Positions 6,432 to 9,251 of a stretch of DNA of 11,262 bases are shown here, piece by piece. Within the stretch, counting starts at the first letter, position 1; each line of letters starts with the position of its first letter. Location: positions 1-11,262 of the forward strand of contig JAHENP010000045.1 of NCBI GenBank assembly GCA_018609965.1, given 5' to 3'. The notes under the pieces were generated by a model. It saw only the letters and a list, made by a program, of their open reading frames with translations, was not told the origin of the DNA and ran no database searches. The stretch comes from Haloferacaceae archaeon. Lineage in GTDB: Archaea; Halobacteriota; Halobacteria; Halobacteriales; Haloferacaceae. Made by a program: the position numbers and the translations under genes.

Positions 6432-9251
6432 ATGGATCAGACGACGTTAGACGACCTCTCTGCGTCCGGCGACGACCGGCCGGAGGCGGAGGCGGTCGCG
6501 GTCGCCGACGAGACGGCGACACACGTCAGTGAGGTGATCGGCGCTGGCGACGTGCGGGTGCCCGAGCCGACTGCGGAGACGGCGGTCGAACTGATGGTGA
6601 CTGCCGTCGACTACACCGTCGAAGGGCGCGGCAGCGACGAGTACCCGGTCGTCCACGTGTTCGGCCGGACCACAGACGACGAGCGTGAACACGTCCGCGT
6701 CGTGGGTGTCGAGCCGTACTTCTACGTTCCGACGGCGGATGTCGCCGACCGTGATCTCGTCTCCGAGTACGACGTGATCCTCGACACGCGCGAGCACCCA
6801 CACGGCGAGCCAGAGAACGATCGGTTCGAGAGCATTCGTGGGGAGCCGGTGACGAAGGTCACCACCCGCACGCCACGGGACGTGGGGCAGATCCGTGACG
6901 AGTTCGCGACCACCTACGAGGCAGACATCCTCTTCCCGAATCGGTTTCTCATCGACCACGGTGTCACTGCCGGGCTTCGGGTCGAACCCCGGCGGATCGA
7001 CGGCGACGAGGAGGCGGCGATCCAGGTCACGCCCGAACACCTGGAGGCGACAGATGTCGACGCCGACCTCCGGGTGAACACGTTCGACATCGAGGTCGAC
7101 GACCGCAACGGGTTTCCCGAGAACGGCGAGGAACCGATCGTCTGTCTGACGAGCCACGACTCCTACCGCGACGAGTACGTGTTGTGGCTGTACGACGCGC
7201 CCGACGGCGAGGGGGTCGTCGACGAGTCGTTCGACGACTACGAGTTCATCTCCGAGGGGTCAACGGTGCGAGTCGAACAGTTCGACGACGAAGACGCGAT
7301 GTTGGACGCGTTCCTAGCGTATCTCGACGAGACTGACGCGGATTTGACAACTGGCTGGAATTTCGAAGATTTCGACGCGCCGTACCTGCTCGACCGGATG
7401 GAAGCACTCAACGGAGCTAGCGACTACGACCTCTCACCGGATCGTGCCTCGCGTGTCGACGAGACCTGGCGGTCGGGGTGGGGTGGGCCGGACGTGAAAG
7501 GGCGCGTCGTCTTCGATCTGTTGTACGCCTACCAACGGACGAAGTTCTCCGAGTTGGACTCCTACCGGCTCGACGCGGTCGCGGAGTTGGAGTTGGGGGT
7601 CGGGAAGGAACGCTACACCGGTGACATCGGCGACCTCTGGGAGGACGACCCCACCCGGTTGTTGGAGTACAACCTGCGGGACGTGGAGCTGTGTGTCGAG
7701 ATCGACCGCCAACAGAATCTGATCGACTTCTGGGACGACACCCGGAAGTTCGTCGGCTGTCAGTTGGAGGACGCCCCCACGCCGGGTGACGTGGTGGACA
7801 TGTACGTCCTCCACCAGGCGTTCGGGGAGTTCGTCCTGCCGACGAAGGGCCAACAGGCCGGCGAGGAGTTCGAAGGCGGGGCAGTGTTCGAGCCGATCTC
7901 GGGGGTCGCAGAAAATGTTTCTGTACTCGACTTGAAAAGTTTGTATCCAATGTGCATGGTAACAATAAATGCGTCTCCCGAAACAATCGTCGACGATCCC
8001 GAGTCGTACGACGGGAAGACGTACCGCGCCCCGGACGGCACCCGGTTCCGGAAGGAGCCCGACGGGATGATGCGGGAGATGGTGGACGAGCTCCTCACGG
8101 AGCGGGAACAAAAGAAGACGCGCCGCGACGAACACGAGCCCGACACGGAGGCCTACGATAAGTTCGACCGACAACAAGCTTCAATTAAAGTCATTATGAA
8201 CTCACTCTACGGCGTGTCGGGGTGGGAGCAGTTCCGGTTGTACGACAAGGACAACGCCGCAGCGATCACCGCGATGGGGCGGCGTGTGATCGAGTTCACC
8301 GAGGAGGCCGCCAACGAGATCGACTACGACGTTACATACGGGGACACTGACAGCGTAATGTTGTCTCTTTCTGACATTTCGACCGCGGATACAGAGGTTC
8401 CAGAGGCGGTACGGGAGGCACACCCGGAGATGTCGACCGCGGAGTTGGAGACGACACAGGCGGCGATCGAGGCCAGCGAGGAGATCGAGTCGTACATCAA
8501 CGGGCGGTACGACGAGTTCGCCAGCGAGGAGTTGGGGGCAGACGAGCACCGTTTCCAGATCGAGTTCGAGAAGCTCTATCGGCGGTTCTTCCAAGCGGGC
8601 AAGAAGAAGCGGTACGCGGGCCACATCGTCTGGAAGGAGGGGAAACACGTCGACAGCATCGACATCACGGGGTTCGAGTACACCCGGTCGGACATCGCGC
8701 CGATCACCAAACGGGTCCAACAACGGGTGATCGAGATGATCGTCACCGGGGAGCCGTTGGACGACGTGAAGGAGTTCCTCCACGGAGAGATCCAGTCGTT
8801 CAAAGCCGGCGACGTGGATGTCGACGAGATCGGCATTCCGGGCGGGATCGGGAAGAAGCTGGACAACTACGACACCGACACCGCACAGGTCCGGGGCGCG
8901 AAGTACGCCAACCTCCTGTTGGGGACGAACTTCCAGTCGGGATCGAAACCCAAGCGGCTCTACTTGGAGAAGGTCCACCCGGACTTCTTCGAGCGGGTGG
9001 AGTCGGAGACGGACCTGACCCCGAACGGGCCCCGCGAGGCGGACGCCCTGTACACGGAGTTCAAACGCGACCCGGACGTGATCTGTTACGAGTTCGCGGA
9101 CGAGCTCCCGCCGGAGTTTGAGATCGACTACCAGAAGATGTTGGAGAAGACGCTGAAAGGACCCATCTCGCGGATCACTGAGTCGCTCGGCCTGTCGTGG
9201 GACGAGATCGAGAGCGGGCAGGAACAGACCGGGCTCGGGCAGTGGGGGTGA
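6432..9251 (+). CDS. polB: family B replicative DNA polymerase, intein-free
   Basis: This 939-aa DNA-dependent DNA polymerase has 3'-5' proofreading. The exonuclease motifs are intact: Exo I FDIEVDD (Asp219, Glu221), Exo II NFEDFD (310-315) and Exo III YNLRD (413-417). The polymerase motifs are intact: A DLKSLYP (500-506), B KVIMNSLYG (586-594) and C YGDTDS (636-641). The C-terminus ends in QTGLGQWG, similar to the PCNA-binding (PIP) tail QxGLxxW of archaeal PolB. ATG 6432 is chosen because the conserved N-terminus begins there; upstream in-frame codons from 6306 would run through the promoter region. No intein is inserted at any motif, yet motifs A, B, C and Exo II carry A/T-ending codons foreign to the rest of the gene. 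It lies upstream of the suf genes on the same strand with a 153-bp gap that holds a separate promoter. Confidence 0.97.
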   Translation: MDQTTLDDLSASGDDRPEAEAVAVADETATHVSEVIGAGDVRVPEPTAETAVELMVTAVDYTVEGRGSDEYPVVHVFGRTTDDEREHVRVVGVEPYFYVPTADVADRDLVSEYDVILDTREHPHGEPENDRFESIRGEPVTKVTTRTPRDVGQIRDEFATTYEADILFPNRFLIDHGVTAGLRVEPRRIDGDEEAAIQVTPEHLEATDVDADLRVNTFDIEVDDRNGFPENGEEPIVCLTSHDSYRDEYVLWLYDAPDGEGVVDESFDDYEFISEGSTVRVEQFDDEDAMLDAFLAYLDETDADLTTGWNFEDFDAPYLLDRMEALNGASDYDLSPDRASRVDETWRSGWGGPDVKGRVVFDLLYAYQRTKFSELDSYRLDAVAELELGVGKERYTGDIGDLWEDDPTRLLEYNLRDVELCVEIDRQQNLIDFWDDTRKFVGCQLEDAPTPGDVVDMYVLHQAFGEFVLPTKGQQAGEEFEGGAVFEPISGVAENVSVLDLKSLYPMCMVTINASPETIVDDPESYDGKTYRAPDGTRFRKEPDGMMREMVDELLTEREQKKTRRDEHEPDTEAYDKFDRQQASIKVIMNSLYGVSGWEQFRLYDKDNAAAITAMGRRVIEFTEEAANEIDYDVTYGDTDSVMLSLSDISTADTEVPEAVREAHPEMSTAELETTQAAIEASEEIESYINGRYDEFASEELGADEHRFQIEFEKLYRRFFQAGKKKRYAGHIVWKEGKHVDSIDITGFEYTRSDIAPITKRVQQRVIEMIVTGEPLDDVKEFLHGEIQSFKAGDVDVDEIGIPGGIGKKLDNYDTDTAQVRGAKYANLLLGTNFQSGSKPKRLYLEKVHPDFFERVESETDLTPNGPREADALYTEFKRDPDVICYEFADELPPEFEIDYQKMLEKTLKGPISRITESLGLSWDEIESGQEQTGLGQWG
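7311..7422 (+). other. A/T-richer codon tract over Exo II of polB
   Basis: Codons such as CTA, TAT, ACT, GAT, ACA, AAT, GAA, GCA and GGA cluster around NFEDFD, while flanking codons end almost always in G or C. The core 7341-7373 is about 39% GC. It is weaker and more diffuse than the tract at motif A. Confidence 0.6.
7911..7985 (+). other. A/T-rich atypical codon tract over motif A of polB
   Basis: Of 25 codons, 16 end in A or T, including GTA twice, AAT twice, ACA twice, AAA and ATA. By direct count the tract is about 37% GC (28/75), against a strongly GC-rich remainder. It encodes ENVSVLDLKSLYP and the next residues, spanning the usual intein position DLK|S (7937/7938). Confidence 0.85.
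8169..8204 (+). other. A/T-rich atypical codon tract over motif B of polB
   Basis: Nine of 12 codons end in A or T (CGA, CAA, CAA, GCT, TCA, ATT, AAA, ATT, TCA), giving about 33% GC (12/36). It ends at the N590|S591 junction (8201/8202) of KVIMN|SLYG, a known intein position in archaeal PolB. Confidence 0.8.
8331..8402 (+). other. A/T-rich atypical codon tract over motif C of polB
   Basis: Twelve of 24 codons end in A or T (GTT, ACA, ACT, GTA, TCT, CTT, TCT, ATT, GAT, ACA, GTT, CCA), giving about 49% GC (35/72). It includes YGD|TDS (junction 8345/8346) and extends about 57 bp downstream. Confidence 0.75.

Follow-up and report, generated by a model that had tools for sequence, protein, structure and literature searches.

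Silent, A/T-raising codon changes at a vacant intein site of haloarchaeal polB: a candidate recoded homing target

An intein-free polB with unusual codons at motif A

The window, by which we mean the entire 11,262-nt stretch of Haloferacaceae DNA analyzed here, carries a gene for a family B DNA polymerase, polB, recognized by Pfam matches to DNA_pol_B (1.9e-43) and DNA_pol_B_exo1 (2.4e-22). We set its start at position 6432, internal to a longer ORF, and no second such match occurs in its genome, which is 74% complete and assembled in 361 contigs. A/T-ending codons average 15.3% across the gene, and its deepest dip in G/C-ending codons lies on catalytic motif A. The polB features discussed below are as follows, with insertion points marked by a slash; limits of the exonuclease (exo), B and C tracts were judged by eye.

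6432 to 9251, plus strand: polB, family B DNA polymerase of 939 aa, intein-free (ORF, Pfam matches)
7908 to 7985, plus strand: candidate recoded tract at motif A, codons 493-518 (best-fit segment, permutation, branch-specific silent changes)
7937/7938, plus strand: vacant intein insertion point DLK/SLYP in motif A, codon 502/503 (intein there in congener G054, locus L067)
7314 to 7397, plus strand: A/T-ending tract at the exonuclease motif, z +3.1; insertion point TGWN/F at 7361/7362, codon 310/311 (G054 intein of 450 aa)
8169 to 8204, plus strand: A/T-ending tract at motif B, z +4.2; insertion point MN/SLYG at 8201/8202, codon 590/591 (G054 intein of 421 aa)
8331 to 8414, plus strand: A/T-ending tract at motif C, z +4.4; insertion point YGD/TD at 8345/8346, codon 638/639 (G054 intein of 437 aa)

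Elsewhere in the window, positions 1050-2375 of the minus strand encode a predicted protein with a Gly/Asn/Ala-rich repeated linker made of GGANAGGG-like units.

Positions 7911-7985 translate to ENVSVLDLKSLYPMCMVTINASPET. A first-pass annotation, made from the sequence alone, had singled out this segment for its composition, and our counts agree with it: 16 of the 25 codons end in A or T, and GC is 37.3%. When codons were shuffled among identical amino acids, the maximum over 20,000 shuffles was 14/25, so that 16 was never reached. Conditioned on amino acids, and with the background drawn from polB away from its four intein sites, the 24 codons around DLK/S contain 14 A/T-ending codons versus 2.5 expected (z +8.3). 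With a whole-gene background the tract scores z 6.56, and away from the four sites the same gene peaks at z 2.36; that is, a scan of polB found no equally deep dip elsewhere.

The four tracts lie on intein insertion points

The annotation took motif A for a vacant intein site, and a close relative bears this out. The ORF of the window is uninterrupted with Ser at the +1 position, as a vacant site should be, while congener G054 carries a 401-aa intein after DLK. Indeed, the polB of G054 holds four inteins, after codons 310, 502, 590 and 638 (exo, A, B and C), and all four junctions match an A/T-ending excess in the polB of the window. The tracts which the annotation had also placed on motifs B and C are real at the z scores listed above, the former being one-sided (left z +5.9, right none) and the latter reaching z +5.7 on its right side. 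The exonuclease tract is a fourth, which it had not mentioned. Leaving motif A aside, exo, B and C are jointly above chance (P 0.0035). In the other two congeners, G009 and G035, polB is uninterrupted.

Three of the four G054 inteins (A, exo and C) were scanned for domains. The motif A intein has a LAGLIDADG_3 match barely above the cut-off and splicing-domain matches below it, the exo intein has both Hom_end and Intein_splicing above the cut-off, and the motif C intein shows a splicing match below the cut-off only and no endonuclease match. Thirteen A-site inteins were spliced out in all, 11 from distinct family genomes plus two duplicate named records; within the family, the carriers belong to one congener and seven other genera. 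Duplicates included, the last intein residue is Gln in 13/13 cases at A, Gln in 49/55 and Asn in 6/55 at B, and Asn in 6/6 at exo and 30/30 at C. Codon 311 of polB, directly after the exo site, is Cys in the four exo-occupied family loci (L061, L064, L066, L067) and Phe in 129 of 132 exo-vacant ones, L063 and L065 being vacant yet Cys. Invasion of the exo site therefore seems to need co-conversion of codon 311.

How common are such tracts? Our family search covered 148 genomes, the three congeners among them, as an even draw from a larger group, and found a polB match in 147. From these, 139 loci were fetched and 136 kept after L060, L101 and L108 were dropped as unresolved. One family genome also has a second polB, 53% identical (G040:C4:62275-64863); a plasmid record of Halobaculum halophilum, matched at almost identical coordinates, may be the same replicon.

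Among 131 low-background loci, out of 153 distinct loci including named records of other families, tracts with z > 3 occur at exo in 14, at A in 7, at B in 53 and at C in 70, in a count whose mapping misread site C on its right flank. In haloarchaeal polB, tracts are thus frequent at B and C and less so at exo and A. For comparison, z 3 is exceeded by 0.5% of the 4,847 control windows drawn from these polB genes, and z 5 by none. Among control genes other than polB, 0/107 reach z 5, with a maximum of 4.86 over 32,589 windows, and only 2/21 polB genes in that run pass it; the polB of the window lay outside the run's filter, and its 6.56 was computed separately by the same recipe. The annotation had conceded that its case would suffer if most haloarchaea used the same A/T-ending codons at motif A, but in low-background family genomes only 9 of 110 vacant A alleles carry a tract.

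Silent change at motif A

Neither G009 nor G035 has a tract at A, and the silent divergence of the window from them is concentrated there: within the tract, 92% of synonymous codons are unlike those of either congener, versus 29% or 33% over the whole gene. Where G009 and G035 agree, and a codon can hence be scored, 17 of 21 codons changed on the branch of the window within codons 491-520, compared with 65/410 elsewhere (Fisher 4e-10). Non-synonymous changes number 0/21 in this segment and 24/410 elsewhere. Of the 17 changes scored, 14 increase A/T and 13 are transitions. Multiple silent changes across the target with the protein untouched are what a recoded target should show. All 30 residues of codons 491-520 match both intein-free congeners, and the tract retains the pair A493 and I519, which 0/132 loci of other genera combine. 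It follows that the tract was either rewritten in place or derived from an unseen congener; to judge from its sequence, it looks recoded in place.

The second possibility deserves a closer look. A gene conversion whose donor was an A/T-rich, intein-free allele of the same genus outside our sample would fit the four genomes by which the genus is represented in the search, as well as the A/T-ending codons found in G054 3′ of this site. Yet G054 shares only 12/30 tract codons, the other two congeners lack the tract, and such a conversion would merely shift the recoding to another lineage. We consider it improbable.

The annotation had favored no single origin, naming synonymous recoding of an endonuclease target and, alternatively, homing followed by loss, with flanks co-converted from a lower-GC donor. 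In the latter, the intein would have been lost again through recombination with an intein-free allele. Both steps have precedent in the available text of PMC3943268 and PMC1654191, where co-conversion during homing is an established process and recombination a proposed route of loss. The position of the tracts on intein sites also agrees with it, as does codon identity: the tract alleles L153 and L124 of other genera share 14/30 codons with the motif A tract, compared with 8/30 for G009 and 7/30 for G035. This closeness is as expected of import, but shared A/T endings alone could explain it. Codon sharing between genera is above chance at exo, B and C, which favors import at these sites; at A it is not (0.432 versus a null of 0.462). 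At site C of genus g13, the protein sequence also distinguishes vacant from occupied alleles, and vacant tract alleles from tract-free ones. Import therefore had a part there, and the contrast between vacant and occupied alleles may reflect intein-borne flanks.

For motif A itself we found neither donor residues nor a donor. A blastn search for a low-GC donor in 391 genomes of the class, its own included, gave matches in 122, none identical, the best after the window itself being 82-84% over 68-76 bp in other families. Phage records yielded three short matches at E about 5, haloviral PolB proteins among the 40 matches listed were about 31-35% identical, a pattern scan of viral contigs returned three stretches, none of them PolB, and none of 47 plasmid records matching PolB reached 60% identity. 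With genus-specific residues retained at A and no donor in these searches, homing followed by loss is poorly supported as the origin of the motif A tract, and we rate it unlikely.

Tracts track intein exposure at three of four sites

We reasoned from the distribution of inteins across genera. Vacancy and exposure counts use 119 loci, 17 with a background A/T-ending share of at least 0.2 being excluded; genus g3, which has other occupied loci at both sites, was set by hand as A- and B-exposed owing to L101. At A, vacant alleles carry a tract in 7/26 cases in genera with an A intein and in 2/84 elsewhere (Fisher 5e-4; genus permutation 2e-4, uncorrected for 16 comparisons). For exposure at exo, B or C, no significant link with A tracts is seen (P 0.11 to 0.68 among the same 16 comparisons). 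Similarly, vacant alleles of exposed and unexposed genera have tracts in 25/50 versus 2/30 cases at B and 10/41 versus 5/75 at exo, although tracts at B are also linked to exposure at the remaining sites, and those at exo to exposure at B and C. Site C tracts do not follow C exposure (45/73 exposed versus 13/24 unexposed vacant alleles). The link with exposure that a recoded target should leave is thus present at A, with B and exo in agreement and C not.

Occupied alleles tell a related story. Tracts are found in 0/9 of them at A, 0/3 at exo and 3/22 at C, but in 18/39 at B, where they are at least as frequent as in vacant alleles (27/80). At C, 58/97 vacant alleles have a tract, a contrast that holds when stratified by genus (P 0.001, the 17 high-background loci included). 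When exo, A and C are pooled and compared within genera, again with those 17 loci, 3/33 occupied alleles have a tract versus 10.1 expected (P 5e-5), a signal that is mostly C; taken alone, 0/9 versus 9/110 at A is not significant. In the window's own genus, tracts mark 9/12 vacant site-alleles and 0/4 occupied ones. These numbers cut both ways for homing followed by loss: tracts at A, B and exo are commoner in intein-bearing genera, and those at B flank resident inteins, but the nine occupied A alleles are tract-free, and at exo all 15 vacant tract alleles have Phe311, whereas all four occupied alleles have Cys311.

Exposure could also leave its mark through damage. If repeated cutting and imperfect repair had increased mutation around the vacant site, with purifying selection sparing only silent changes, tracts would be centered on the insertion point and linked to exposure, as they are at A, B and exo, and the predominance of A/T-raising changes and transitions would be natural. 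The available text of PMC7521656 also describes shortening of the target region in 55% of colonies given a short-flanked endonuclease target on a plasmid. Strand-specific damage was considered and rejected; the left/right asymmetry expected of single-strand damage is absent, with G>A at 3 left and 4 right and C>T at 3 left and 2 right, all small numbers. The absence of any replacement among 21 codons, even at positions that vary between genera, is a second point against break-associated mutation, which we hold to be about as improbable as conversion within the genus.

Tracts at an mcm intein site

The mcm gene offers a comparison. We examined 71 of 145 matching genomes, 40 of them chosen to cover occupied alleles and their genera; dropping five without a polB background left 66 rows, 60 with low background. 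At the junction EQQ/S, tracts with z > 6 occur in 7/46 vacant and 0/14 occupied alleles. At z > 3 there is no vacancy bias (14/46 versus 4/14, not significant), and as a replicate of that bias the site fails at this threshold. In a post hoc comparison whose Ser carriers come from three genera, 7/10 vacant alleles with Ser at +1 have a tract versus 7/36 without; Ser, which is splice-compatible, occupies +1 in all 17 occupied alleles examined. In the window's genus, three vacant genomes have their gene's top dips at EQQ/SISIS, while G054, occupied there, is GC-rich beside the junction. At the mcm P-loop, a tract adjoins the occupied site in the genome of the window, and another lies at the vacant site of G009.

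The vacant EQQ/S tract of the window's own genome is, at z +10.7, even stronger than that of polB motif A. The same mcm (G000:C66, L215) is split by two inserts, seen as gaps of ~170-180 aa between its Pfam matches, which look like mini-inteins. Another gene, DP2, shows A/T-ending dips (L211, L212, L213) around CDGDEDCVMLL(L/M)DGLLNFS, near the DP2 intein region, in loci taken together regardless of intein occupancy.

Could the motifs themselves favor such codons? Codon choice for translation speed, folding or RNA structure, with no role for inteins, would account for tracts on conserved motifs and for C tracts that are common with or without an intein in the genus. However, motif A is tract-free in 101/110 vacant alleles, tracts at A, B and exo are linked to the intein exposure of the genus, and an mcm intein site has tracts too. 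We regard this explanation as very improbable.

A recoded target for a homing endonuclease?

Of the two origins named by the annotation, synonymous recoding fits better; its vacant site and its tracts at other sites stand, and homing with subsequent loss is poorly supported. We give an even chance to the reading that the vacant intein target at motif A was recoded synonymously and has become hard for a homing endonuclease to cut. It builds on the location of the tract, on silent change in place and on the link to exposure at A, B and exo; that cutting is lost, and that this loss was selected, we infer.

Recoding might have proceeded as follows. A-site inteins are present in the family, and a LAGLIDADG endonuclease of the kind found there would cut the usual GC-rich target. 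The host presumably could not escape by an amino acid change, because the residues of motif A are catalytic. According to the available text of PMC3024317, polB homing works efficiently in vivo, and a single change in the target is tolerated by the endonucleases if it is synonymous but not if it is non-synonymous; according to that of PMC3943268, the tolerant positions of one enzyme coincide with wobble positions. Since single wobble changes are tolerated, escape would need many silent changes at once. The recoded allele would then be cut poorly and remain vacant. Given the plasmids shortened in 55% of colonies in the accessible part of PMC7521656, cutting without homing can be costly. The A/T richness of the tract need not be a donor signature, because where ~85% of a gene's codons end in G or C, silent changes will mostly add A/T.

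Several observations speak against recoding. Site C ignores exposure, B tracts flank inteins, and mcm has no vacancy bias at z > 3. In addition, the tract of 78 bp is longer than the 14-40 bp targets quoted in the available text of PMC3024317, with more changes than resistance should need, and the tolerance of endonucleases at wobble positions (PMC3943268, PMC3024317) likewise counts against recoding.

The available text of PMC3024317 and PMC4071816, which names the polB inteins polB-a, -b, -c and -d, treats the same gene and the same class of vacant target, but does not describe recoding of vacant targets. Titles and abstract openings of a literature from which subscription journals were mostly missing contain no report of synonymous recoding of vacant intein sites. 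A close known case, as far as the accessible portion of PMC10643990 goes, is that of mcm alleles that resist invasion through a proline after the site. These are likewise vacant and invasion-resistant, a resistance that for the tract of the window is inferred. There, resistance is attributed to splicing blocked by the proline and not to failed recognition, whereas here the protein is unchanged and codons alone differ. Co-conversion tracts of homing introns and inteins are similarly short and centered on the insertion point; unlike them, the motif A tract has no donor that we could find, keeps the residues of its genus and is absent from nine occupied A alleles.

More broadly, and somewhat more tentatively than for motif A alone, we propose that vacant intein sites in haloarchaeal polB and mcm may evolve in place, codon by codon, into protein-identical, uncuttable targets that are scars of past exposure. 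If true, this may explain how alleles stay vacant amid active homing, and such sites would be natural targets for testing how many wobble changes defeat an endonuclease. Inteins occupy residues that their hosts can hardly change; if recoding is a means of escape, vacant sites would record this arms race in genomes.
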